Virus record (IMG/VR): IMGVR_UViG_3300035181_002093
Span: 1 to 64,000 of that record
From: a virus
Length of the DNA: 64,000 nt
Direction: 5' to 3' (one strand)
The position numbers and the translations under genes were made by a program. The notes below the pieces were generated by a model that ran no database searches, was not told where the DNA came from, and saw nothing but the letters and a program-made list of their open reading frames with translations. This document shows, one piece after another, positions 14,697-51,889 of the stretch. Numbering within the stretch: position 1 is the first letter of the stretch; every line of letters starts with the position of its first letter.

Positions 14697-16820
14697 TCAC
14701 GCGGCGGGCGTGCGCCGGAAGTGCGCGACGAACCGCGGGATGAAGCGCTCGCATACTTTCATGTCCGACGTGATCGCAGCGTTCGACCACGGCAATGCAC
14801 GTCGAACAGCGCCTCCGTAGGTCTTGTCCCAGATGCGGCTGTCGAGAATGGCGACGCATCCGCGGTCGTCTTTGCTACGAATCAGGCGCCCCACGCCTTG
14901 GCGCAAGTCGATCAACATGTCGACCATCTGGACGTCACGGAAGGCGTCCTTGCCTGCCAGACGTTCTCGCGCCTTGATGATGGGGTCGTTGAACTGCGGG
15001 AACGGGAGCTTCGCCATGATGACGAGTCGCAACGCGCCGCCAGGCACATCCACGCCTTCCCAGAAGGACTTCGAACCCACCAGGATCGAATCGGGTGTCG
15101 CCTTGAACAACTTGAGCGCAGCGTTCGGATCGCCGTCCCACGGGTTCTTGCGATGCCCCTGCACGAACGTCCGTCCGGGGAAGCGTTGCTTGAGCGCGAC
15201 AGCGAACGCATCGAGTTCATCGTTCGCGGTGGTCAAGATGAACGCGCCACCGTCGGACAGCTCGACGAGCTTGACTGCCATGTCGACACGGCGCTGCATG
15301 ACGACGGCGTAGTCAGGGTTGTTCCGTCCGATCGCAGGCAGCTCGCGAGGCACGAACACGAAGCCCTGCGCGTCGTAGTTGAACGACGTCGGGAGCACCT
15401 CCGCCTTTGCCGGCGACAAGCCTGTCATGCTGGTCACGTGGTCGAAGGCGTCGTTGACCGCCAGCGTCGCGCTGCAGACCACGATCGTCTTGATGGCGCT
15501 GAAGTACTTGCCCGCAATACCGCCCACGCTCACCGGCGCACAGTTGATGCCGAATCGACCACGGTCATCCTGCGTCGCGTAGATCGCGGTGTTCGCGAGG
15601 ATGCGTTCCCGGCGCATCGCCTGCTCTTCGGGATTGGTGACCTCGAGGTCTGGGTCGACGACACCTTGGGCCGTCTGTAGGCCGCGTAGCAACGAATCGA
15701 CACGCCGCGTGGCTTGCGCGAGGAACGCGAGGTCGCGGGCGTTGCCTTCTTCCTTTCGCACCGCCTCGTGTGCCAGGTCGACTTCGATGCCGCGCATCTC
15801 TTCGTCGAACTCCGACAGCCCATCGTCGATCGGCGCGTACTCGCGCGGTTCTTCGGACTCGTCTTCCTTGGAGAACACCTCGGTGGACTTGGCCAGCTCG
15901 ACCGCCAAGGCGCGCAGCCCGTCGATGGCGGCGAGCGCGAGCACGGGTTGGAAGACCGGGATCTCCTTGGCGTTGGCCTCTTGGTAGTGCCGGTTGGGCA
16001 CCGCCTCGAACATCGCCTTCCAAGGCTCGAGCAGCTTGCCGATCGAAGGGAACGTGCTGCTCGTACGCTTGAGCAAGTCGTTCAGCGCGGTGATCGAATC
16101 TTCGCTCACCCGGTGCGTGAACGCCGAGCGGATCCCTGCCGCGAGCGTGTGCGCCTCGTCGATGATGAGGACGTCGTACGGCCCGCCCACCAGCTTGCCG
16201 TGACCGAAGTACATCTCGGCCCCCAACACGTGGTGGTTGATCACGATGAGCTTGGACTGGGAGACGTCCCGCTTGAGACGGACGTAGCCGCAGTTGTCGA
16301 AGTAGTCGCAGCGCTTGCCAACACAGTCTTCGGCGGACGCAGAGCCCCACCATCGCGGGGGCATTCCAGGGTACTCGGCCCGATCGCCGTAGAGGTTACG
16401 CCGGAGGAAGTCCATGTACGGCGCGCCGTCGTCGGGGTTCTTGGCGAGGATCGTCATCGCGGACAACTCGCAGGCGTAGTTGCCCTTCCCCTTCAAGGGG
16501 ATCGCGGTCGCGGAGGGCTGGTTCAGCACACGCTTCAACGTCGGGAAGTCTTTGCCGACGATCTGGTCCTGAAGCCCTTTTTTGGCCGTTGCCACCACGA
16601 CCCGACGCCCCGCAGCCAGAAGCGCCGGCAGGAGGTACGCATAGGTCTTGCCGGTGGCCACCGGGGCCTCGCAGAAGTAGGCTCCCCCGTCTCGAAGAAC
16701 CTCCTCGATGGAGTTCGCCATGATGATCTGGGGAGGCCGCGCTTCACGCACCAAGCCGTGCGCGGGATCGGTCAAGTAGTCGGTTACCGTGCGCATGCTG
16801 GGTGAGTCTGCCTTGCTCAT
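14697..16820 (-). CDS. DinG/XPD-like superfamily 2 helicase with Fe-S cluster
   Basis: The 707-residue protein (ATG 16820) has Walker A APVATGKT (residues 52-59), four cysteines at about 117, 166, 171 and 177 arranged as in XPD/DinG Fe-S domains, the DEAH box at 221-224 (LIIDEAHTL), motif III-like VVCSATLA, and C-terminal motifs V/VI (SFWEGVDVPGGAL and RQGVGRLIRS). Family members unwind DNA 5' to 3'. A roughly 150-residue acidic insertion precedes the second RecA domain. It is probably a replication or recombination helicase. It is divergent from the tail module (58-base gap). Confidence 0.92.
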   Translation of the reverse strand: MSKADSPSMRTVTDYLTDPAHGLVREARPPQIIMANSIEEVLRDGGAYFCEAPVATGKTYAYLLPALLAAGRRVVVATAKKGLQDQIVGKDFPTLKRVLNQPSATAIPLKGKGNYACELSAMTILAKNPDDGAPYMDFLRRNLYGDRAEYPGMPPRWWGSASAEDCVGKRCDYFDNCGYVRLKRDVSQSKLIVINHHVLGAEMYFGHGKLVGGPYDVLIIDEAHTLAAGIRSAFTHRVSEDSITALNDLLKRTSSTFPSIGKLLEPWKAMFEAVPNRHYQEANAKEIPVFQPVLALAAIDGLRALAVELAKSTEVFSKEDESEEPREYAPIDDGLSEFDEEMRGIEVDLAHEAVRKEEGNARDLAFLAQATRRVDSLLRGLQTAQGVVDPDLEVTNPEEQAMRRERILANTAIYATQDDRGRFGINCAPVSVGGIAGKYFSAIKTIVVCSATLAVNDAFDHVTSMTGLSPAKAEVLPTSFNYDAQGFVFVPRELPAIGRNNPDYAVVMQRRVDMAVKLVELSDGGAFILTTANDELDAFAVALKQRFPGRTFVQGHRKNPWDGDPNAALKLFKATPDSILVGSKSFWEGVDVPGGALRLVIMAKLPFPQFNDPIIKARERLAGKDAFRDVQMVDMLIDLRQGVGRLIRSKDDRGCVAILDSRIWDKTYGGAVRRALPWSNAAITSDMKVCERFIPRFVAHFRRTPAA

Positions 16821-16878
16821 GGGATAAACATCAAGACGATAGGTTGCTTTCCTAGTCCGTTCCTTGTACCAAGATTCC

Positions 16879-17481
16879 ATGCCAACTACGGATGACGCTC
16901 GCATCGGTGACTTCTCGCGCCCCGTGGTCGATCTGCCCAAGGCAGGCACCTCTCCGACCAAGGACGCGCTCGACCACGCCGAGCAAAAGCTCGAGGAGGC
17001 CGTCCAGCAAGACGAGGCGACCCTCAAGCCGATGGTCTCCTACGAAGAGCGTCTCAAGGAGATCGGCGTCACCAAGGTCAAGGCTGCCGAGATCATCGAC
17101 GCCGTCCTTCTCAAGGGCTACTACGCTGAGGACGTCGCGATCACGAAGTCCATCAAGGCCCGCTTTCGCACGCGCAACTCGCGCGACACGAAGCGCGCCC
17201 AAGAGCAGATCGAAGCCCAGCGCCTGACGTACGAGGTGCACTACAGCGAGCTGCTGGCACGCTTGCTGTTGGCGGCGTCGCTCGAGCGCTTCGCCGACGA
17301 CGCGTTCACTCACCTGCCCCGGGGCAGCAAGCACGACGCCATCGAAAAGTCCTTCTTCGACCGCTTGAGCTACGTCGAGAACCTGTCGGATCCGGCGATG
17401 CGGCTGCTCATCACCAAGCTCACCAAGTTCGACCGTATGATCAGCACCGTCCTCGAGGAGGGCGCCATCGAAAATTTCTAG
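16879..17481 (+). CDS. Putative tail assembly chaperone (G-like), frameshift donor
   Basis: The 200-residue acidic helical protein (ATG 16879, MPTTDDARIGDFSRP) sits two genes upstream of the tape-measure-like gene. The body contains a SYEERLKEIGVTKVKAAEII block and an arginine-rich helix. The last three codons before the stop are GAA AAT TTC TAG, which contain an in-phase A AAT TTC slippery heptamer. The -1 frame continues open into the next ORF, exactly the lambda G/GT layout. The function is inferred from this architecture rather than homology. Confidence 0.7.
   Translation: MPTTDDARIGDFSRPVVDLPKAGTSPTKDALDHAEQKLEEAVQQDEATLKPMVSYEERLKEIGVTKVKAAEIIDAVLLKGYYAEDVAITKSIKARFRTRNSRDTKRAQEQIEAQRLTYEVHYSELLARLLLAASLERFADDAFTHLPRGSKHDAIEKSFFDRLSYVENLSDPAMRLLITKLTKFDRMISTVLEEGAIENF
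17472..17478 (+). other. Candidate -1 programmed ribosomal frameshift site AAATTTC
   Basis: The heptamer is in the X XXY YYZ phase (A AAT TTC) and is immediately followed by the zero-frame stop TAG at 17479-17481. Slipping one base back gives CTA GGT CGC ... with no stop until 17867, adding about 129 residues to the 200-residue upstream protein. The downstream 40 bases are very GC-rich and could hold a stimulatory structure. Confidence 0.7.
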
Positions 17482-17507
17482 GTCGCCCGGGAGGCAACGC
17501 ACGCGCG

Positions 17508-17867
17508 GTGTTGTTCTCGCGCGGCATGCATCTGGCGCCCTACGGTTCTATTGAGGATCGCGTGATGCGCGAGATGGTCTTCCGGGAGCGCCAGGAGCGC
17601 GTGTCTCATGTCGATGCGATCGCCAAAATGATCGCGCGCGTGTTCAATGTGGATGCTGGAAAAGCGTTCGGCGGGATCGTTGCGGAGTACGCAGCCGAGG
17701 TCTTCCAAGAGACGTACGACCCCGAAGTCCTCAAGCGAAAGGTCGCGCGGCGCCGTGCTGCCCAAGCAGAGATCGTCGCGAAGCGTGAGCATGACGAGCG
17801 GCTGATCGAGCGGCTGAACCGGATGGGTGAGTTCTACGATCGCCAAAACCCGAAGAATGCCAAGTAA
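17508..17867 (+). CDS. Tail assembly chaperone T-like extension (reached by -1 frameshift)
   Basis: The visible frame from GTG 17508 encodes 119 residues, but the same frame is open back to the slip site at 17478. It is charged and helical, ending KREHDERLIERLNRMGEFYD. A GGGAGG lies 13 bases before the GTG, too far for good initiation, which favours production by frameshift. The fusion product would be about 329 residues. The tape-measure-like gene follows after 28 bases. Confidence 0.65.
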   Translation: MLFSRGMHLAPYGSIEDRVMREMVFRERQERVSHVDAIAKMIARVFNVDAGKAFGGIVAEYAAEVFQETYDPEVLKRKVARRRAAQAEIVAKREHDERLIERLNRMGEFYDRQNPKNAK

Positions 17868-17881
17868 CTGCTGGAATACGC

Positions 17882-17887
17882 TACAAT
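17882..17887 (+). promoter_or_regulatory. Possible -10 element (TACAAT) before the tape-measure-like gene
   Basis: CGCTACAATAACCCC lies in the 28-base gap, with the hexamer ending 8 bases before the ATG at 17896 and no Shine-Dalgarno sequence visible. It differs by one base from the TATAAT core of the three stricter CCCTATAATT sites. No -35 is recognisable. Confidence 0.3.
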
Positions 17888-17895
17888 AACCCCAA

Positions 17896-20800
17896 ATGGC
17901 AGACCAGCAGTCGAACGACACCATCCGCCAGATGATGTCGGGCTTCTCGGCGATGCAATTCAACCTTGGATTGCTGCCGATGCCGCAAGCCCAAGCGATG
18001 GGCGGCGCGGGTCAGCAGTTCCAAGCACCACCCCCACCACCGCCCGTGATGCACCCCGGTGAGGCGGCACTCCAGGCGTTGCAACGCCACGACAACATGG
18101 TGCAGCAGACGCTGCAGGCTGCACAGGTCACGCGCTACCAGCCGCCACCGTCAGCTCCGACGCCGTCGGTGAGCGCGATGGTCGGCATGGGCGCGATGAA
18201 CCCCTTCATGGCACCGCCGGTCGGCGGCGGGTTCAGTGGCGGGAACGGCGGGGGCGGCTATGGAGGCGGTGGATTCGCAGGCGGCGGCGCGTTTGCTGGT
18301 GGCGGCTTCGCAGGCGGCGGCGCTCCGCGGATGCCTTCGATCTTCAACCCGTTCGCACCCACGATGCCGCAGGCACACTTCGCATCGCCTGCAATGCGCA
18401 ACTTGCAAATGATGCAACACGCGCAATCAAGCGCGATGAGTATGGCGGCAGGCGTCACCGAAGGCGTGATGGGTGTTGGCGGCAGTGTGATCGGCGGCGC
18501 ATTGGGGTCGGCACTGGGTCCGCTTGGCACGATGGCAGGGTCGTGGCTCGGCGGCAAGATTGGCGGAGCTGTGTCGGGCGTGATGACGGGCAACGTCACA
18601 CAGGACTTTGCACGTGGACGACAGATTCAGCAGATGACGTCACCGTTCATGGTGTCAGGTTCGAACTTGAACATGATGACGGGTCAAGGGATGGACCCGA
18701 CAGCGGCACGTCAGACTGCGACAGGTCTCCGACACATGCAGCGTGACTATGACTTCGAGCGCACGGGGTTCAACTCCCAGGACGCGATGAAGATCATGCA
18801 GCTATCCGGGCAGCAAGGACTCCTGACGGGCGCGCAGTCACCGGACCAGCTCGTTGCGAAGGTCAAGGAGATCTCCAAGGCGGTCAAGGTGCTGATGAAG
18901 ATCACCGGCGACCCGGATGTGCGTGACGCCATCCATTCGCTCGGCGAGATGCGGACGATGGGCTTCCAAGGCCTCGCGGCGCAAGCAGGCGCTGTTGCGA
19001 ACCGTGCGGCGTTCGCACGCATGGCCGGTGTTTCCCAGGCGGAGATGGGTCAGTACGGTCAGATGGGCGCAGGCATGGCCCAACAGATGGGCCTTGCAGG
19101 TGCGACGGGTGTGATGGCGGGACAGGCAGGCGCAGGTCTAGCAAACATCGCGGGGTCGACGGGAGCGCTCAACGATCTGCAGATGGCGCGCGCTGGCGGT
19201 CACCAAGGCGTCGCACAGATCCTGGCGAAGGCGCAGCTCGGTGCGATGGACGACGGTCGTTACCTCGCGGCGTCACTCACACGGGACAAACACGGCGCAC
19301 TGACCGTCGATCCGAACCTCTATCGGCGCGCACAGGGCCTTTCGATGCAGGAGGTCTCGCAGATGGCGGCGACCAAGCGGCGCGAGATCGGCGTCTCGGG
19401 CAACCTCGAGTTCGCCAACCGCACCCAGGAGTTCACGGACCAGATCGCTCAGAAGCTCAGCCCGCTCGAGATGCAGCTGATGTCGTACCGCCAAGCGCAG
19501 GCGCTCCAGCAGAAGATCGGCCATGGTGCGGACCTCGCGGTAGGCTTCCGTGCGATGGGGATGTCGGAGACCGAATCGCGCACGATGGCGAAGATGGGTG
19601 AGAGCCGTGAGTTCTGGGACGCACAGGTCGATCAGCTCAAGGTCCGTCGTCGCGATGCCGCCGATGAAGATCGTGCGCGTCGCGAGCAGTACCGGACGCC
19701 TGGGCTCGGTACGCGAGCACGCCGTGCGATCGGGCGGTTTGGTGCGGGCGTGAGTGAGGCCATCTCATCACCCTTCCGGTCGATCTCGGAACACTTCGAG
19801 CGGGTTCACGAAGACGAGGCGGCTGCAGGGCGCGGCGAGCTTATCGATCGCTACAGCGAAGGTGAGATGGCGCGTACCGAAGGCGAACGTGGCATGGCAC
19901 GAGCGGGCCTCCGTCGCTTCGGACGACAATACGGCGAAGGCGCTGGCGAGAGCCCCATGGACCGTATCGGCACGACCCAGGGTCTTGGCGGGCACGCGGA
20001 CCGGCAGATGAACCGCATGGTTAGCTGGCTTGGCCTCACGGGCGAGAGTGATGAGAACCGGTTCGTCGAGATCGCAAGCCATTCACGGGGCAGCTTCGGC
20101 GGCTGGCACCCGTTTGCGTCGTTCGGCAACGTCGGCGACGCCGTTACACGCGTGCGTGACGTGAGCGAGGCGGGTCAAGCGGTCACACGCGGTGAGGCGA
20201 TGACGCGCGAGAAGGCGATGGCAGCCTACTCCGAGCTTCAGACCTCGGGGCAAGACACCCAACACAAGGACTTCAACGTACACAAGGGCCTGCAGGCGGC
20301 TGTGACCACGTTGCGTTCGAGCCTCGACGATCTGAAGGCTAGCGGTGTAGACAGTGCGTCGGCGGTAGGCGCTAGCGAACTACGTAAAGCGGGCATCGAG
20401 ATGTACAAGTCGCAGGGCTTTTCCGATAGCGACGCGGCGCAGAAGTACGAGGCCAACAAGCCCACCGTCAACGCCATGCTGACGCGTGAGATCATGCGCG
20501 GCGGTAACAAGGGCCACATCGAAACACTGATGAAGGCAAAGGACGTGCAAGAGGCGATCGGCGGTGTGGACTGGAAGCGCTCTCGAGAAGGTCACGAGAA
20601 GGCTATCAAGGCGCTGTACCGCAAGGCCGGACTCACGGGTACCAAGTACGGGTGGTTCAACAAGACCTCTGAGGAAATCTCCATCGACGAGAAGACGCGG
20701 GCGAGTCTGAAGGCGACGTTCGGTGCGGCAGACGTTGAGCGTGACAAGGACGGCAACCTCGCCAAGCGCGGCAAGGACATGCTTACACTTGCGGCTGCGT

Positions 20801-21522
20801 ACGCCACCGTTGCAGCCAATTCGACCCCGGCAGAGAAAGACAAGGCCAACGCGATCATCACGGCCATGCAAGGGGAATACGGTGACAAGTTCAGCGCACT
20901 CAAAGAAGACGCTGAAGAGAAGATGGGCCATATGGATGAGGACACGCGTAAAGCCCTCATCAAGACCGTGACGACAGGCGCGAGTCCGAAGGAAGCGGGA
21001 GAAGGCGTCGAAGCAATCGAAGGCGCGCTGGAGATGACGCTCGAAGGTGCCACCCAGAAGAAGTTCCTCCAGACATTGTCGGAGAAGGTGGGGGACAAGG
21101 GGCTTGCTGACGCTAAGTTCGCGGTCGACGCCGTCGAAGGGTTGACGGACACGCAGATGAAAAACCTCGAAGACACATCTCCGGCGCTCCACAAGAAGCT
21201 GCTGGCGGCGAGGGCCAAGCCCAAGGGTGCTGATCGAGACGCAGCAATCCAGAAAGTCATCTCGGAAGTTGGTGGCGTCACCAAGACAAAAGAGATCTCC
21301 GGCGGCGGCACCGACCGCTCCGCACAGGCTATCGACGATCAGATCTCCGCAGTCGAGGAGATGCGTGACAAGGTTGCCAAGGGCGACGCCAGCTCGTCGG
21401 ACATCGGACAACTCACGGCGGACAGCACGGTGTTGTTCTCGTCGTCGGTGAAGGACTTCCAAGAGTCGGTCACCACCCTCAAGCAAGTACTCAACAACTC
21501 CAGCCAACAGTCGAGATTTTAG
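17896..21522 (+). CDS. Putative tail tape-measure protein, 1208 aa
   Basis: The gene follows the frameshifted chaperone pair and is the largest early-module ORF. The N-terminal 180 residues are Gln/Met/Pro/Gly-rich, including a glycine repeat tract. Residues about 190-240 are a hydrophobic glycine-rich segment (GVMGVGGSVIGGALGSALGP) able to insert in membrane. The rest is long alanine-rich helix, as in tape-measure proteins that scale tail length and assist DNA ejection. The assignment rests on position, size and composition. A large baseplate or internal virion protein is the alternative. Confidence 0.65.
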   Translation: MADQQSNDTIRQMMSGFSAMQFNLGLLPMPQAQAMGGAGQQFQAPPPPPPVMHPGEAALQALQRHDNMVQQTLQAAQVTRYQPPPSAPTPSVSAMVGMGAMNPFMAPPVGGGFSGGNGGGGYGGGGFAGGGAFAGGGFAGGGAPRMPSIFNPFAPTMPQAHFASPAMRNLQMMQHAQSSAMSMAAGVTEGVMGVGGSVIGGALGSALGPLGTMAGSWLGGKIGGAVSGVMTGNVTQDFARGRQIQQMTSPFMVSGSNLNMMTGQGMDPTAARQTATGLRHMQRDYDFERTGFNSQDAMKIMQLSGQQGLLTGAQSPDQLVAKVKEISKAVKVLMKITGDPDVRDAIHSLGEMRTMGFQGLAAQAGAVANRAAFARMAGVSQAEMGQYGQMGAGMAQQMGLAGATGVMAGQAGAGLANIAGSTGALNDLQMARAGGHQGVAQILAKAQLGAMDDGRYLAASLTRDKHGALTVDPNLYRRAQGLSMQEVSQMAATKRREIGVSGNLEFANRTQEFTDQIAQKLSPLEMQLMSYRQAQALQQKIGHGADLAVGFRAMGMSETESRTMAKMGESREFWDAQVDQLKVRRRDAADEDRARREQYRTPGLGTRARRAIGRFGAGVSEAISSPFRSISEHFERVHEDEAAAGRGELIDRYSEGEMARTEGERGMARAGLRRFGRQYGEGAGESPMDRIGTTQGLGGHADRQMNRMVSWLGLTGESDENRFVEIASHSRGSFGGWHPFASFGNVGDAVTRVRDVSEAGQAVTRGEAMTREKAMAAYSELQTSGQDTQHKDFNVHKGLQAAVTTLRSSLDDLKASGVDSASAVGASELRKAGIEMYKSQGFSDSDAAQKYEANKPTVNAMLTREIMRGGNKGHIETLMKAKDVQEAIGGVDWKRSREGHEKAIKALYRKAGLTGTKYGWFNKTSEEISIDEKTRASLKATFGAADVERDKDGNLAKRGKDMLTLAAAYATVAANSTPAEKDKANAIITAMQGEYGDKFSALKEDAEEKMGHMDEDTRKALIKTVTTGASPKEAGEGVEAIEGALEMTLEGATQKKFLQTLSEKVGDKGLADAKFAVDAVEGLTDTQMKNLEDTSPALHKKLLAARAKPKGADRDAAIQKVISEVGGVTKTKEISGGGTDRSAQAIDDQISAVEEMRDKVAKGDASSSDIGQLTADSTVLFSSSVKDFQESVTTLKQVLNNSSQQSRF
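18231..18330 (+). repeat. Glycine-coding repeat tract with 17-base direct repeat
   Basis: Repeated GGC/GGN codons encode G-G-x-F-A-G-G-G-A units. The sequence TTCGCAGGCGGCGGCGC occurs exactly at 18274-18290 and 18307-18323, 33 bases apart, preserving reading frame. Such repeats can change length by slippage, altering the N-terminal linker of the tape-measure-like protein. Confidence 0.7.
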
Positions 21523-26708: not shown

Positions 26709-27461
26709 ATGCGACCCATGCCGAACACGCTCGCCCGTTTTGCGAAGTTGGCTGCCACGAGCCGCCAAACGCAGGACATCGACGCGTGGCACGCGTGGAA
26801 GAAGAGCCCGACGGATGCGAACGCCAGCGCGCTCCTCGCGCAGGTCAACCCGCTCATCCACCGTGAAGCCAACAAGTGGGCAGGTACCCTCGCACGGCCG
26901 TTGCTCGAGTCGGAGGGTAAGCGCCTCGCGATGGAGGCGTTCCACAGCTACGACCCGAACAAGGGTGCGGCGCTTGGCACACACGTCGTCAACCAGCTCC
27001 AGCGGCTGTCTCGGCTCAGCTACGCGAACCAGAACGTCGCACGGCTACCCGAGAACAAGATGTTGCTCTACCACAGCTACAACGTCGCCCACTCGGATCT
27101 GGCGGATGCCCTCGGACGCGCACCGACGACGGACGAGCTGGCGGATCAACTCGGGTGGCCGATGCATCGCGTCGAGGAGTACCGCAAGTCGATCGGACGC
27201 AAGGAGCTGCTCGAGTCGGGTGGGCTCTTCGAGACGGGCGACGCAGGGCTCTACGATGCGGACAAGCAAGAGCACGTCGTCGACTTCATCCACCACGACT
27301 TGTCTCCACAGCAGAAGGCAATCTTCGAACACCTGACGGGGTACGGGGGTGCTGAGCAACTCTCGAATCAAGAGATCCAGAAGAAGCTCAACATGACGCA
27401 GGGCCAATACAGCTACGCCAAGGCGAAGCTCATCGAGCACGTGGAGAAGGTCCATGGCTAA
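26709..27461 (+). CDS. Sigma-70-family-like protein inside the tail module
   Basis: The 250-residue protein has a region-2-like segment (VNPLIHREANKW, AMEAFHSYDPNKGAALGTHV), a region-3-like segment (LADALGRAPTTDELADQLGW), and a C-terminal region-4-like helix-turn-helix (LSNQEIQKKLNMTQGQYSYA). It is divergent, so DNA specificity is probably changed. The ATG follows the hub gene stop by 4 bases without a visible ribosome site. It overlaps the next structural gene by 8 bases, so it is expressed with virion genes. It could alternatively be a structural protein derived from a sigma factor. Confidence 0.7.
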   Translation: MRPMPNTLARFAKLAATSRQTQDIDAWHAWKKSPTDANASALLAQVNPLIHREANKWAGTLARPLLESEGKRLAMEAFHSYDPNKGAALGTHVVNQLQRLSRLSYANQNVARLPENKMLLYHSYNVAHSDLADALGRAPTTDELADQLGWPMHRVEEYRKSIGRKELLESGGLFETGDAGLYDADKQEHVVDFIHHDLSPQQKAIFEHLTGYGGAEQLSNQEIQKKLNMTQGQYSYAKAKLIEHVEKVHG

Positions 27462-38363: not shown

Positions 38364-38654
38364 TTACCGCGCAATCCAGCGTGACTCAATAGCGATGCAC
38401 TGGAGACAGGTCAGGCAATCCTGCAGGTCCGTTTCGCGAATCTCGTCCGAGGCTGCGTGCCCGAACTCGATGTCCGTTTCAGCGCGTTCCCCGGACATGA
38501 AGCGCTCGGCAGCGTTGCACGACATCAGCAACGTGAAAGGCGGGTAGTACTCCGACGCCTTGTCGTCTTCCATGCGATGGACGAGGCCGTGTTCGTCTCG
38601 CCAACGGAACCGTTTGTCGTCTATGCGTGCCACTCGCACGCGCCATTGGCGCAC
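38364..38654 (-). CDS. Hypothetical protein, 96 aa
   Basis: ATG 38654 lies within the 3' end of the ribonucleotide reductase gene (34-base overlap); a GTG further on is an alternative. The product has charged helices and a C-terminal CLTCLQC cluster. I recognise no family. Confidence 0.5.
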   Translation of the reverse strand: MRQWRVRVARIDDKRFRWRDEHGLVHRMEDDKASEYYPPFTLLMSCNAAERFMSGERAETDIEFGHAASDEIRETDLQDCLTCLQCIAIESRWIAR

Positions 38655-41600
38655 GCGGCCTCGCCCGTCAGGTTCGTGCCGTCCTCGGCCTCGAACACCG
38701 AGAGGTAGTCGATCGGCTTGTAGCCGGCGATCAGCTCGTTCCAGCGCCGCTCCTGTGCCTCCGTCTTCACCGCCTCGAATGGCGCGAACGCGTAGACCAT
38801 GTCGCCCGAGTCTGGCAGGAGCGACACGCCGGTGAAGTTGTCACGGTGGTCCCACAGGTAGTCCGCGACGGTGACCCACTCCGTCGGACGAACGGAGATC
38901 GTGTTCGAGACGTTGTGCGAGAGGCCCGGCATGTGGCTCGGCCGTGTCGCGCCCGGCATCACCCAGTGCTGTTGGGTGGACCGCACCATGTTCATGAATT
39001 CCTCGGCGGTCAGGTCTTCCTTGAGCACCGCACCCTCGGGAGCCTCGACGGGGAACTCGATGACCCACTTGCCGTCGGGCTTCTTCACGCACATGTGCGG
39101 GTTCGCGGTCTGGAACGCCTGGAACACGACCTCCAGCTCGTCGGCGGTGACGCGGCGGATGTAGCGACGCGCGTGGTGCGGGTGGATGCCCGAGCCCACG
39201 TTGCCCAGCTCGAGGGACGTCGTGCCCGACGGCTTCACGCACGTGGTGCGCGCGGCCTGGTTGATGCCGATCATCGCGGCGTACTCCGCGTTCCACGCGA
39301 CGACCTTGCCTGCGATGGCGCGTTGGTAGTCGGGGTTGCACGCGATGTGCGGTGCGTCCTGCATCCCCGTCATCCCGATGCCGAGTAGCGCATCACGCCG
39401 AACGATCGCCTCGGTGACCTTGCCCAGGAACGGCATGTCCGTGTACGTCGCCTGCATCGTACCGATGAGCGCGGCGGCCCACGCGGCCTCGGAGAAGTCC
39501 TCGTACGAGGTGAGCTTGGCGGCGTTGATCTCGCAGAGATTGCACATCGCCCAGCCGGTGCTGGTGGTGCCGTCCTCGTTGAGGAGAAGTGGGTCGAGTC
39601 CGATCTCGGCACACGGGTTGGTCACGTGGTTGTAGTCCGAGACGAACAGGACGCCGGGCTCGCCGTAGTTCTTGGTCATCCCGAAGATGCGCTTGAACTG
39701 CTTCTCCTTGACCTCGTCACGCTTGAGCACGACGGAGTTGTTGGCGTTGGCGAGCCACGGCTCCTTCGAGTACCAGTCACGATCCGACTTGGCGTACATC
39801 AGTTCGCTGTCCTCGAGTGAGAACAGACAGATCATCGCGGAGCGCCGGATGCCGCCCGAGAGCACCGCATCGGCGGCATGGCACAGAACGCGATGGCACT
39901 CGATCGGACGGAGCTTGCGTCCCTGTGCGCTGTGGAGCACGCCACGGATGCGCTCGAGCGCAAGCTTGAGCTTGCGGTGCCCGGGGGCGCGGCCGCCGCT
40001 GGTCTTGAGCGCAGCCCCTGCGGCACGGATCTGGTGATAGGCGAACTCGACGTGGTAGCCACGGGTGTAGCCGTTGACGAGCGCGTCGAGTGCGCCTGCC
40101 CAGCCCTCGATCGTGTCCTCGATCACGTGGTGAACGACCAACGTCTCGTCGATGTCCGCGAGTGGCGGGAGCTTGTCGACGTGCTCGAACTGCACGGAAT
40201 AGCCGACGCCACAGCCGGACAGGAGCAGGAACATCGCCTCGGCGAACGCGCGCGGCCGATCGATCAGAGTCGCGGAACAGTTGCCTGTAACAACCCCGTT
40301 ATCGAGCACGAACGAATGGTCGTCCTCGACTTCGAGACACCAGACGACCTCTTCAGCGTCGGGCTCGATCGACTTCACCTTGTAGGTCGCGGGCCCGGCA
40401 ACCCCGAAATTAAACGTCAACCCAAACATCGACGTCGTTGGACGCGTACCATAGTTGGTAGTCTGGCCGGTCAAGTCACGCTCGCGTGTTATATACGCGC
40501 CCACCGTCGGAAACACAGTCCGGATGAAGGAAATCGCGGCTTCGTTGCTGGTCTGGATACCGTCGAATGGAGACAAGTGTGTCTCGTCTTTGTTCGCGTT
40601 CGCGTTCTTGTGACCATCCGCGTCGAGATACCCACGGACAAACGCGGCCACGTTCGCGTGTCCGTCCGTCTCGAGCGTGGGGAGTGTTTTGAGGTACTTT
40701 CCCGTGTAAGCCATTGCGTCACCGTTGCAAGACGGTGGACGGCTGATTTTGAATCCTAGTTCCTCAAAGCGAGCGACAAAACGGCCGTCGTCTCCACAGA
40801 GGCGGACCATCGAGTACGTATACTGCCCTTCGCGGTTCTTGACGCACGTACCGTCGCCATACACGTACCCCATTGCCCAGTACCAGCGCTCTTCGGGGTT
40901 CGCGTCCTCGTAACGCCACGCGCCAACGATAGTTGGAGGGCGGGCCAGAACCTGTCCGACCTGAAGTTCACGGGTCCGTTCTCCGCCGGAGAGCACCCAT
41001 TGGTGATTACGTGTTGCGCGAACGGTCTGTGTCCCGCTGCCGCGCTGCAGCTCTACTTTGTAGAGTTGTTGTTTGCCGTAGCTAAACACCTTCGCCGGCT
41101 TCCAATTGCCGGCGTGCGTGAGCACCGTGACACGGTCACCGTGCTCGAAATCTGAAAACCGACGGACGCCTGTGCTCGTGATGAACGCAGTGTCTTCGCT
41201 AAGACAGTTGTAGATGCGGTTGTGATTCGCCTCGATCGCCTTGCCGCCGAACTGCATCGAGCGCATCGACGGAAGCACCTTTTTCTCGCGCACCAGATCG
41301 TGAGCGCGCTTGATGAGCGGGAGCAGTTCAGGGATGTGCGCGAAGCGGCGCAGGTGCATGCCCTCCACACGGTCGACCGTCTCGTCGTAGACCTCGCGGC
41401 GCTGGATCTCGGGGACGTAGCGCGCGTACTTGCTTGCGTGGATGTAGTCGCTGACAGCCGAGGCGTCGGGCTTCCTGCGAACCGTGCGCGCCTCGGTCCG
41501 CTTCTGACGGTAGATGATGAACGCCTTGGCGACCTTGAACTGCTTGGCACGCATGAGCGCGACTTCGACCGCGTCTTGGATTTGTTCGACGTCCGCGACG

Positions 41601-41803
41601 TCAGCACGCAGCGTCGCGGAGACGAACGTAGCAACGCGATGAAGACCCTCCTCATCGACAGCGCCCTCGGCCTCGATCCATGCCTTGCGTACCGCGCTCT
41701 CGATCTTCCCGACGTCAAACGGCTGTGTGGTCTGCCCATCACGCTTGCGAACAGTTACTGGTTGAACGACAGGAAGGTTGAACGGGGCGTCGGCAGATTG
41801 CAC
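38621..41803 (-). CDS. nrdJ: Class II ribonucleotide reductase with intein
   Basis: The 1060-residue precursor has an N-terminal ATP-cone (residues about 16-105, VRKRDGQTTQPFD). The intein lies at residues 200-508, and the B12-dependent reductase core resumes at C509 (CSATLIDRP, LLLSGCGVGYSVQFEH). Late motifs are NPCAEIGLDPLL, TCVKPSGTTS, HNVSNTISVRP and the C-terminal redox pair CANGAC. No small subunit is visible and none is needed for class II. The mature enzyme, about 751 residues, reduces ribonucleotides using adenosylcobalamin, feeding ThyX and the dNMP kinase. Splicing is required for activity because the intein interrupts the active-site cysteine. Confidence 0.9.
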   Translation of the reverse strand: MQSADAPFNLPVVQPVTVRKRDGQTTQPFDVGKIESAVRKAWIEAEGAVDEEGLHRVATFVSATLRADVADVEQIQDAVEVALMRAKQFKVAKAFIIYRQKRTEARTVRRKPDASAVSDYIHASKYARYVPEIQRREVYDETVDRVEGMHLRRFAHIPELLPLIKRAHDLVREKKVLPSMRSMQFGGKAIEANHNRIYNCLSEDTAFITSTGVRRFSDFEHGDRVTVLTHAGNWKPAKVFSYGKQQLYKVELQRGSGTQTVRATRNHQWVLSGGERTRELQVGQVLARPPTIVGAWRYEDANPEERWYWAMGYVYGDGTCVKNREGQYTYSMVRLCGDDGRFVARFEELGFKISRPPSCNGDAMAYTGKYLKTLPTLETDGHANVAAFVRGYLDADGHKNANANKDETHLSPFDGIQTSNEAAISFIRTVFPTVGAYITRERDLTGQTTNYGTRPTTSMFGLTFNFGVAGPATYKVKSIEPDAEEVVWCLEVEDDHSFVLDNGVVTGNCSATLIDRPRAFAEAMFLLLSGCGVGYSVQFEHVDKLPPLADIDETLVVHHVIEDTIEGWAGALDALVNGYTRGYHVEFAYHQIRAAGAALKTSGGRAPGHRKLKLALERIRGVLHSAQGRKLRPIECHRVLCHAADAVLSGGIRRSAMICLFSLEDSELMYAKSDRDWYSKEPWLANANNSVVLKRDEVKEKQFKRIFGMTKNYGEPGVLFVSDYNHVTNPCAEIGLDPLLLNEDGTTSTGWAMCNLCEINAAKLTSYEDFSEAAWAAALIGTMQATYTDMPFLGKVTEAIVRRDALLGIGMTGMQDAPHIACNPDYQRAIAGKVVAWNAEYAAMIGINQAARTTCVKPSGTTSLELGNVGSGIHPHHARRYIRRVTADELEVVFQAFQTANPHMCVKKPDGKWVIEFPVEAPEGAVLKEDLTAEEFMNMVRSTQQHWVMPGATRPSHMPGLSHNVSNTISVRPTEWVTVADYLWDHRDNFTGVSLLPDSGDMVYAFAPFEAVKTEAQERRWNELIAGYKPIDYLSVFEAEDGTNLTGEAACANGACEWHA
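40280..41206 (-). mobile_element. LAGLIDADG intein in the ribonucleotide reductase
   Basis: The 309-residue intein begins C200-L-S-E-D-T (block A), has T-x-x-H-like block B (RATRNHQWVL), two LAGLIDADG motifs (AMGYVYGDG and VRGYLDADG), block F (EVEDDHSFVLDNG) and ends V-V-T-G-N508 before C509 of the C-extein. The penultimate histidine is replaced by glycine, a variation known in some active inteins. The DNA is less GC-rich than the flanking exteins, which suggests a separate history. Confidence 0.9.
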
Positions 41804-50126: not shown

Positions 50127-51740
50127 ATGTCGGAAGAGGTTTATCGTTCAACCATCGCGCAGGGGATGTTCTACGTCGACGGCAAGCCTTTGTCGCTCGA
50201 GGACTACCCGATGTTTGGCGCGGTGTACGACGGCAAGTACCCGCGCCTGCTCTTGAAGACGGGACGACAGGTCACCAAGTCGACCACGCTCGCCGCCTTC
50301 ATGATCGCGGAGGCCGTCGCGACCCCGAACTTCAAGTCCTACTACGTCTCGCCGACGCAGGAACAGACTCGTAAGTTCTCGCACACCCGCGTCGCCAAGA
50401 TTCTCGCCTACAGCCCAGACCTTCGGAAGGGTTTCGTCAACGCGAACTCCATTGACAACGTGCTCCTGCGAATGTTCAGGAACGGGTCCGAGATGGCGTT
50501 CACGTATGCGCTCGATGACCCTGATCGCGCACGCGGGTACTCCGCTGATCGTTGCAATTTCGACGAGGTGCAAGACATTCTCTACGAGTCGGTCATTCCC
50601 GTCATCGAGGAATGTATGGCCAACTCGAGCTATCAGTATTCGGCCTACGCTGGAACGCCCAAGACGATGGAGAACACCATCGAATTCTTGTGGTCCCAGT
50701 CATCACAGACCGAATGGTGCATGCGCTGCAAAGCATGCAACAAGTGGACGTTCATCGATAGCGTGAAGGGGTTGGGCAAGCTGGGCCCTGTCTGTATTGG
50801 CTGTGGTACGTACCTCGATCCGCGTAAGGGTCAGTGGGTCGACATGTCCAAGGACAAGGCGGCCGGCATCAAAGGTTTTCACATCTCGCAGGCCATCATG
50901 CCTGTCAACGTACCTGCGTCCTGGCAGCCCGGAACGTCAGGGTACGAAGCCGCAATCGAACGCTGGAACAAGCTGCTCTACAAGATGGACTCGCCCCTCT
51001 ACGGCGAGTCGCGCTTCCTGAACGAGTGCATCGGCGTCAGCACGTCGACAGGCGTGCGTCTCTTGACCAAGGAGATCCTCGAGGCGCTCTGTGATGAGAA
51101 GCACGAGATGACACGTCTGCCGCTGCCGTTGTCGAAGGAAGGCATCGTGCGCACGGTTGCCGGCGTCGACTGGTCTGGCGGTGGCGCTGAGATCAAGGGC
51201 AGCGAGGGCATGTTCAAGTCGCGCACGGTGCTCCACATCTGGGGCCAGCAAGCCGATGGACGGCTCAAGACGCTCTTCTACAAGATCTTCCCCAACGGCC
51301 ACGCGATCGGGTGGGTCGAGGAGATCGTCGAGCTGTGCAACGCCTGGGCAGTCCAGATGGTGGTGGGCGACGCCGGCGAAGGCGCCATCGGCAACTCGTT
51401 CTTGCGCGCGAAGCTCGGCGACCACCGCGTCACCTCCATTCGATACATGGCGCTGTCCAAGCCCTACGAGTGGAACCCGAACGGCATGGTCTACAACGCC
51501 GACCGCACCACGATGATCGACAACTTCGCACGGCAGCTCCTGCACAAGCAGCTGATCTACCCGATGCTGAAACAGGCCCAGCCTGCCATCAACGACATCC
51601 TCAACGTCTACGAGGAAGTCACGATGCAAGGACGCAAGGTGTGGCGCCACTCTCCGACGATGCCCGATGACTGCCTGCATGCACAGCTGTTCGGCTGGTT
51701 CGCGTGGATCATCCTGACGCAGAACTACAAGTTCTTGTGA
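50127..51740 (+). CDS. terL: Terminase large subunit (GpA-like)
   Basis: The terminase packages DNA into the prohead. The 537-residue protein has an ATPase domain with Walker A G46-R-Q-V-T-K51-S-T and Walker B CNFDEVQDI (D146, E147). A zinc knuckle lies between domains (CMRCKACNKW and CIGCG), and an RNase H-like nuclease follows with VAGVDWSGGG, VVGDAGEG and a final PDDCLHAQ. No Shine-Dalgarno sequence is visible before ATG 50127, only 25 bases from the divergent ATPase gene. No small subunit is recognised nearby. Confidence 0.88.
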   Translation: MSEEVYRSTIAQGMFYVDGKPLSLEDYPMFGAVYDGKYPRLLLKTGRQVTKSTTLAAFMIAEAVATPNFKSYYVSPTQEQTRKFSHTRVAKILAYSPDLRKGFVNANSIDNVLLRMFRNGSEMAFTYALDDPDRARGYSADRCNFDEVQDILYESVIPVIEECMANSSYQYSAYAGTPKTMENTIEFLWSQSSQTEWCMRCKACNKWTFIDSVKGLGKLGPVCIGCGTYLDPRKGQWVDMSKDKAAGIKGFHISQAIMPVNVPASWQPGTSGYEAAIERWNKLLYKMDSPLYGESRFLNECIGVSTSTGVRLLTKEILEALCDEKHEMTRLPLPLSKEGIVRTVAGVDWSGGGAEIKGSEGMFKSRTVLHIWGQQADGRLKTLFYKIFPNGHAIGWVEEIVELCNAWAVQMVVGDAGEGAIGNSFLRAKLGDHRVTSIRYMALSKPYEWNPNGMVYNADRTTMIDNFARQLLHKQLIYPMLKQAQPAINDILNVYEEVTMQGRKVWRHSPTMPDDCLHAQLFGWFAWIILTQNYKFL

Positions 51741-51743
51741 GGG

Positions 51744-51816
51744 TGGACTCGAGGGGGATCGAACCCCTGACATCTAGCTTGCAAAGCTAGCGCTCTCCCA
51801 GCTGAGCTACGAGCCC
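51744..51816 (-). tRNA. tRNA-Ala (UGC anticodon)
   Basis: The minus strand folds as a full cloverleaf: acceptor GGGCTCG/CGAGTCC (one G-U), D arm GCTC...GAGC, anticodon stem CTAGC with loop TTTGCAA (anticodon TGC), and T arm CAGGGGTTCGATCCCCCTC. The CCA end is not encoded. It reads GCA (and by wobble other GCN) codons. Confidence 0.95.
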
Positions 51817-51818
51817 GG

Positions 51819-51889
51819 TTCGCGGAGAAGGACTCGAACCTTCATAAACGGCGTCAAAGGCCGTTGTCCTGCCATTGAACGATCCGCGA
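51819..51889 (-). tRNA. tRNA-Gln (UUG anticodon)
   Basis: The acceptor TCGCGGA/TCCGCGA, D stem GTTC/GGAC, anticodon stem ACGGC/GCCGT with loop CTTTGAC (anticodon TTG), and T arm GAAGGTTCGAGTCCTTC are all present. CCA is not encoded. It lies 2 bases upstream of tRNA-Ala in transcription order, so they are probably one precursor. It reads CAA, a codon likely to be rare in a GC-rich host. Confidence 0.93.

Follow-up and report, generated by a model that had tools for sequence, protein, structure and literature searches.

A putative −1 frameshift site set directly against a stop codon in a candidate tail assembly chaperone gene pair of phages

Two reading frames that lie directly before a tape-measure-like gene in a viral genome are very probably joined by −1 ribosomal frameshifting at the heptanucleotide A AAT TTC, which would fuse ORF1 and ORF2 into a 329 aa product. 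By analogy, the pair is most likely an undescribed member of the lambda G/GT class of tail assembly chaperones; this function, and the detail of a tandem slip, are less sure than the fusion. The window, i.e. the whole stretch of DNA analysed, is 64 kb long and is part of a virus record of 137,503 bases (G+C 61%). The frameshift reading is based on the site sequence and how well it is conserved, on coding constraint in the −1 frame, and on synteny. From these we infer the occurrence and rate of the slip, the tandem movement of the tRNAs and the chaperone function. The features concerned are the following, in window positions.

16879–17481, + strand: ORF1, 200 aa, with ATG at 16879 and stop TAG at 17479–17481; candidate G-like tail assembly chaperone
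17456–17461, + strand: AGGAGG, an internal Shine–Dalgarno-like element with a 10-nt spacer to the heptamer; presumably stimulates the frameshift
17472–17478, + strand: slip site A AAT TTC (X XXY YYZ), in phase with ORF1
17479–17481, + strand: ORF1 stop TAG, directly 3′ of the slip site
17478–17867, + strand: ORF2, −1 frame, 129 aa; proposed T-like part reached by frameshifting
17896–21522, + strand: tape-measure-like gene, 1208 aa, the next gene downstream; named from position, composition and weak similarity

ORF1 ends with the codons GAA (17470–17472), AAT (17473–17475), TTC (17476–17478) and TAG, and the −1 frame is open from 17478 (CTA GGT CGC CCG …) up to a stop that ends at 17867. An earlier note on this DNA had placed the heptamer in this position against the stop and had the −1 frame open from the same base, and the sequence confirms these coordinates. 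The 119 aa that it gave for the second frame holds when the count is made from the first GTG (17508); the frame in full is that of the 129 aa ORF2. The internal Shine–Dalgarno sequence is an addition to what it described. The predicted fusion has the junction …EGAIENF-LGRPGGNARA…, and the predicted tryptic peptide across the junction is MISTVLEEGAIENFLGR in the window and ANFLSQPWAK in the related Salmonella phage Arash.

According to the proposed mechanism, most ribosomes would read ORF1 to the TAG and yield the 200 aa G-like protein. In a minority, probably held back where AGGAGG pairs with 16S rRNA, the slip would occur with tRNA-Asn on AAU and tRNA-Phe on UUC, both of which would move back one base onto AAA and UUU. 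These ribosomes would then read CUA GGU CGC … and produce the 329 aa GT-like fusion. By the lambda analogy, the tape-measure protein would be coated by the G part, tail-tube subunits would be recruited by the T part, and both parts would depart before the tail is completed.

The gene order is ORF1, ORF2, the 1208 aa gene, and then M23 and baseplate genes. The 1208 aa protein is rich in glycine in its N-terminal part. It is followed by a 1220 aa protein that carries an M23 peptidase domain, then by a sigma-factor-like protein, another M23 protein, and baseplate-wedge-like and baseplate-J-like proteins; this downstream gene set is a module of the contractile-tail type. Upstream of ORF1, on the opposite strand, is a helicase gene. 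The names gp25-like, tape-measure and DinG, as used for window genes, are labels of our own choice. The stretches before the starts of ORF1 (16850–16878) and of the 1208 aa gene (17868–17895) have no Shine–Dalgarno sequence. Five of six sequences of the window family share a TCCTTGTACCAA motif ahead of ORF1 and a motif resembling CTACAATA behind ORF2; both are absent from the sixth (L012). Elsewhere in the window, a 1060 aa ribonucleotide reductase (38621–41803, minus strand) has family matches at residues 16–110 and 508–1057 with a long stretch between them, which may be an insertion, for instance an intein.

Relatives of the pair were collected in several ways. A protein search with ORF1 found four loci. 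A DNA pattern search returned 12 stretches, seven of which encode relatives, four on contigs already found by the ORF1 protein search and three new (L007, L010 and L012); L006, L008, L013, L014 and L016 encode no relative and were dropped. Profile searches found eight loci with ORF2 and seven with ORF1. One locus, L024, was found by the ORF2 profile search only and also carries the heptamer; a GTC codon ahead of GAA had kept it from matching the DNA pattern. The window family thus collected has six members distinct by sequence: the window itself (= L002), L003 (L004), L005, L007 (L010), L012 and L024; the loci in brackets duplicate the sequence they stand with and were not counted. ORF1 relatives show 47–82% identity. 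L007 and L012 were first found via the heptamer; both were already part of the profiles by which they were later recovered. Accordingly, L003, L005 and L024 are the members found independently of the site, and all carry the heptamer. Among prokaryote genomes, 99 stretches matched the DNA pattern and none is a relative. A tblastn search of named phages with ORF1, ORF2 and the 1208 aa protein gave no relative, and a single Gordonia match (E 0.7) was discarded.

More distant relatives are found through the neighbouring genes. The terminase and baseplate proteins of the window match those of Salmonella phage Arash and Vibrio phages D69, D148 and D181. The genes that follow the terminase are gp2, gp3 and gp4 in Arash and 0002, 0003 and 0004 in D69, and the first two of each are annotated as separate hypothetical proteins. 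In a small-set blastp, ORF1 matches Arash gp2 with E 1.6e-6, and the 1208 aa protein weakly resembles D69 0004 (E 2e-9) as well as Arash gp4 (E 0.011). The same comparison gives Arash partners in the same order for the 373 aa protein (gp6), an M23 protein (gp8), the sigma-like protein (gp10), the wedge-like protein (gp12), baseplate J (gp13) and a 794 aa protein (gp14); the 147 aa gene and the 354 aa M23 gene have no significant Arash partner in it. Profile comparison links ORF1 with gp2/0002 at 97.2% (E 3e-11) and ORF2 with gp3/0003 at 81% (E 1.2e-5), the latter beginning at the second residue after the slip. The window terminase gene (50127–51740) lies 33 kb from the pair; in Arash and D69 it directly precedes the pair. 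Directly after the window terminase gene are two adjacent tRNA genes, Ala (tgc) and Gln (ttg), at 51742–51889 on the minus strand. Further relatives are three Arash-type contigs (L035–L037) and one Vibrio-type contig (L043), none found via the slip site. D148 and D181 do not differ from D69 across the two genes and are not counted as distinct.

An X XXY YYZ heptamer is present in all 12 distinct homologous sequences, which belong to three sub-families; 11 have AAATTTC and one (L043) has AAATTTT. A stop follows the heptamer immediately in every case, TAG in six and TAA in six, and a −1 frame is open in all 12, with Leu as the first residue after the slip. Arash gp2 ends A AAT TTC TAA with gp3 in its −1 frame, and D69 shows the same. 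The L043 junction is A AAT TTT TAA, where the change from TTC to TTT keeps the heptamer slippery. Thus, the lambda G/GT-type −1 frameshift put forward in the earlier note gains support, and the homologues, among which a broken heptamer or a changed frame had been looked for, all keep both.

Whether the site could be due to chance was judged from codon usage. The 33 selected window ORFs (15,679 codons) have 17 in-phase X XXY YYZ heptamers, one of which is AAATTTC, and this is the sole heptamer that abuts a stop. In the same ORFs, AAT accounts for 49 of 541 Asn codons, and third-position A makes up 9.7% in the window. As a control on codon identity, 16 of the 55 degenerate columns of ORF1 that are invariant in amino acid across the six lineages keep one codon, including the last three (GAA AAT TTC). 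What stands out is therefore the rare AAT among the fixed codons and not codon identity itself. The slip-site arrangement, as judged from these sequences, is not a chance one.

The codon before AAT is GAA, GCA, TCA or TTA among the 12 distinct sequences. It specifies four different amino acids, and its final A, the first base of the heptamer, is constant. A tandem slip that involves all seven bases is thereby favoured over one of the P-site tRNA only, and in the A site the shift from UUC to UUU would be a cognate re-pairing for tRNA-Phe. The earlier note had described a stop codon in the decoding centre; the conserved first A speaks instead for slippage before the stop enters the A site. The reading in which UAG does occupy the A site and P-site tRNA-Phe alone slips from UUC to UUU appears improbable. 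Its product would be identical to that of tandem slippage, and the invariable position of the stop after the heptamer, which by our own reading extends to Bacillus phage G, agrees with it; the level of release factor would then set the fusion ratio. For such a slip, however, conservation of the UUU part would suffice; AAA does not vary either, whichever of the four codons precedes AAT, and the stop alternates between UAG and UAA. A wider proposal is that A AAU UUY with an immediate UAR is the fixed, stop-coupled slip signal of a deep large-myovirus lineage, with phages named after Salmonella and Vibrio among its members. Slippage would then be in competition with termination at one codon, and so release-factor supply would contribute to the chaperone-to-fusion ratio and, through it, to tail assembly. 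This is offered tentatively and is doubtful.

Slippage during transcription on the short A/T run, which would give mixed mRNAs, has scarcely any probability. An AAAATTT run is present, but the longest run of a single base at the site is four, and transcriptional realignment is described for A runs above 7 and T runs above 8 in the portion of PMC3711429 that treats it.

Motifs of the form H_HH.U_UU.Y are given in a section of PMC4066793 as among the most efficient in E. coli, and A_AAU_UUC falls within this class, so the heptamer is not odd in itself. It is outside the 21 motifs of the gene search described there. The zero distance between slip site and stop is unusual compared with the SEA-PHAGES training set, for which an extract of the PRFect paper gives a mean of 26 nt (PMC10274946). 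That the slip site touches the stop, as pointed out previously, is correct for the window; the arrangement is not new, given that Bacillus phage G gp181 ends A AAA AAC TAG by our own reading of the record. No report of AAAUUUC/AAATTTC as a frameshift motif was found in the open-licence literature. In the main text of the Arash paper, the words 'frameshift', 'tape measure' and 'chaperone' each occur zero times (PMC10585845).

Evidence for translation of ORF2 from the slip site comes from its first codons. In the six lineages of the window family, nine codons after CTA lie upstream of every in-frame start codon. Over these nine codons, the −1 frame has one variable site at codon position 1, one at position 2 and eight at position 3 (binomial p 0.003); its crude dN/dS is 0.16, versus 2.0 and 2.6 for the other two frames. 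The first ATG, GTG or TTG of ORF2 is at codon 10, 11, 10, 29, 41 and 16 in the six lineages, with no start place common to them. Constraint at the protein level upstream of all starts signifies that, in the window family, the first residues of ORF2 are translated, and not from a start of its own.

These data bear directly on whether ORF2 is a separate gene, expressed by re-initiation or from its own start after ORF1, with AAATTTC merely encoding Asn-Phe. A GTG at 17508, present at the same place in two of the six nearest lineages, sits 13 nt after GGGAGG; Arash gp3 and D69 0003 are annotated with their own ATG starts in public records; and a Shine–Dalgarno sequence just before a gene end can serve re-initiation, as stated in part of PMC5009743. 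Against this are the conservation of, and strong protein-level constraint on, residues that no start codon precedes in the window family, the scatter of the first start codons, and the rare AAT and preceding A, which are fixed despite alternative codons for the same residues. A separate gene is hence very unlikely. The first start codon is at index 7 in D69 and 4 in L043. In all four Arash-type sequences it is at index 9, which favours the separate-gene reading, and an additional, separate initiation is possible there; in Arash this start codon has AAAGG upstream.

Predicted pairing of AGGAGG (17456–17461) with the 16S tail has a duplex energy of −12.3 kcal/mol, compared with −8.5 for the best of 26 gene-upstream regions, although a shorter stretch was tested in the latter and one of the 26 is not at a true start codon. 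A spacing of 9–14 nt is given for Shine–Dalgarno stimulators of −1 shifts in an excerpt of PMC5009743, and the 10-nt spacer of the window is inside this range. AGGAGG with the 10-nt spacer is the same in five of the six window-family lineages and weak in L012. The hexamer occurs 24 times in 47,136 coding bases, including a second copy within ORF1, and 18 of 5,160 coding windows reach −12.3; the element is therefore uncommon and not unique. It may simply follow from the peptide EEG, which is encoded GAGGAGGG in four of seven cases in window ORFs. No well-spaced internal Shine–Dalgarno sequence was found in Arash, L035–L037, D69 or L043.

Secondary structures 3′ of the site also vary. In the window family, a 3′ structure has no covariation support among the six lineages, and folding z-scores range from −2.3 (L012) to +1.1, with L003, L005, L007 and L024 no better than shuffled sequences. 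A 3′ pseudoknot or hairpin has no support in this family, and Rfam gave zero matches over 16800–18000. Outside it, folding is better than that of shuffled sequences in D69 (z −4.0), L043 (z −4.2) and Arash (z −2.2), as it is in L012. The main stems of D69 and L043 are ∼20 nt from the slip site, and D69 also has a small hairpin that begins at the third base; the Arash stem begins at the fourth. As a separate observation, the strong folds (z about −4) 3′ of the stop in two Vibrio-type relatives are at L034:2049–2132 and L043:1339–1422. From the sequences, stimulators seem to vary between sub-families while slip site and stop stay constant.

Assignment of the pair as chaperones is less direct. 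Neither ORF1 nor ORF2 matches a named family in PHROGs or Pfam, or any chaperone family at E up to 1, and a search of PDB sequences gave nothing useful; weak matches to DUF5771, DUF1868 and three unnamed PHROGs were discarded. The 1208 aa gene likewise has no family match. Known tail assembly chaperones are reportedly highly diverged, and for this reason the missing family match was not treated as defining. AlphaFold models were made from six-sequence alignments, with pLDDT of 70.7 for ORF1, the N-terminal part of which is of low confidence, and 74.8 for ORF2; the structure search was performed with the ORF1 model only. Among 865 aligned solved chains, VIA-align places first YqbN 3KLU (Z 6.6, rmsd 5.7, 98 aligned) and second the HK97 chaperone 2OB9 (Z 5.7, rmsd 5.0, 97 aligned), with the third row at Z 4.5. 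Both are called tail assembly chaperones in a portion of the text of PMC9603447, whose table lists YqbN as uncharacterized. At Z values such as these two, likeness of fold can be a coincidence, and the VIA-align order gives modest support only. Foldseek was not decisive alone as a fold assignment: against the PDB, helical chains with no relation to chaperones rank ahead of 2OB9, which comes fourth by E (0.74), and in a viral library the best match is an uncharacterized phage protein (E 1.8e-3), with the phage N15 GT protein and two annotated chaperones at E ∼1. The earlier remark that the two proteins have no obvious relation to known chaperones thus stands for sequence searches, which name nothing; at the level of the ORF1 model, the two top matches are chaperones, with Z values that are not decisive.

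This raises the question of whether the fusion is real and the pair nevertheless another morphogenesis factor beside the tail module. The probability of this is small. The lack of a sequence family match and the modest structural scores would fit such a factor, and the tape-measure identity of the next gene is itself our interpretation. In the Arash virion proteome, according to Table 2 of PMC10585845, Gp4 has the second-highest spectrum count, which is more than expected of a low-copy tape measure. On the other side are the place of the pair, immediately upstream of the long gene in a module that also has baseplate genes, the two chaperones that head the structural matches, and the absence of Gp2 and Gp3 from that table, in which one row between Gp134 and Gp140 has no legible name. 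The Arash virion preparation is rich in enzymes, and the absence of Gp2 and Gp3 is consequently only supportive of chaperones that leave the particle. By position, composition and weak similarity, the 1208 aa gene is a likely tape measure.

A sigma-factor-like gene (26709–27461) is found inside the tail/baseplate module. Arash gp10 (L033:11892–12596) shows 34% identity with it and D69 0011 shows 26%. The Arash gp10 product and RNA polymerase beta and beta′ are reported in virions in PMC10585845, which suggests that Arash virions package a polymerase along with its sigma factor.

The new elements are the family itself, its invariant A AAU UUY-stop signature and a proposed re-annotation of the pair in four named phages. 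A function is proposed for proteins that are 'hypothetical' in Arash and in Vibrio phages D69, D148 and D181, with the neighbour as a likely tape measure. The slip heptamer and stop are kept while the proteins diverge to the edge of BLAST detection, and the signal may thus help to find chaperones in unclassified phages. In addition, the arrangement provides a natural case for the effect of a stop directly after a slip site on −1 frameshifting.

Several known systems can be compared with the window pair. Colwellia phage 9A has a terminase that clusters with that of Arash, according to a section of PMC10585845; its gene table over the first 50 kb shows no obvious chaperone pair before the tape measure. 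HK97 gp13 (2OB9) and YqbN (3KLU) are the best two solved-structure matches of the ORF1 model, but they have 107 and 119 aa compared with the 200 aa of ORF1, and identities are 16% and 9%. The E. coli dnaX gene resembles the window in having a heptamer with an internal Shine–Dalgarno sequence upstream (PMC5009743 and PMC3711429, both in part); it differs in its slip pattern AAA_AAA_G and 3′ hairpin (same part of PMC3711429). Arash gp2/gp3 and 0002/0003 of Vibrio phages D69, D148 and D181 form a homologous pair with the same heptamer, stop adjacency, frame and downstream neighbours. They differ from the window in the stop TAA, in the lack of a well-spaced internal Shine–Dalgarno sequence and in having the terminase gene as their immediate upstream neighbour. 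Bacillus phage G gp181/gp182 (NC_023719.1) is an annotated chaperone pair before a gene noted as a tape measure, and gp181 has the same zero distance from slip site to stop, whereas the heptamer is another one and the T part is longer. With lambda gpG/gpGT no sequence relation was found, and the window pair has A AAU UUC, in contact with the stop, as its slip site. The likeness is one of design: lambda has two ORFs before the tape measure with a −1 slip near the end of the first, and neither product is in the mature virion (from excerpts of PMC5009743), with which the absence of Gp2 and Gp3 from the Arash list of virion proteins would agree.
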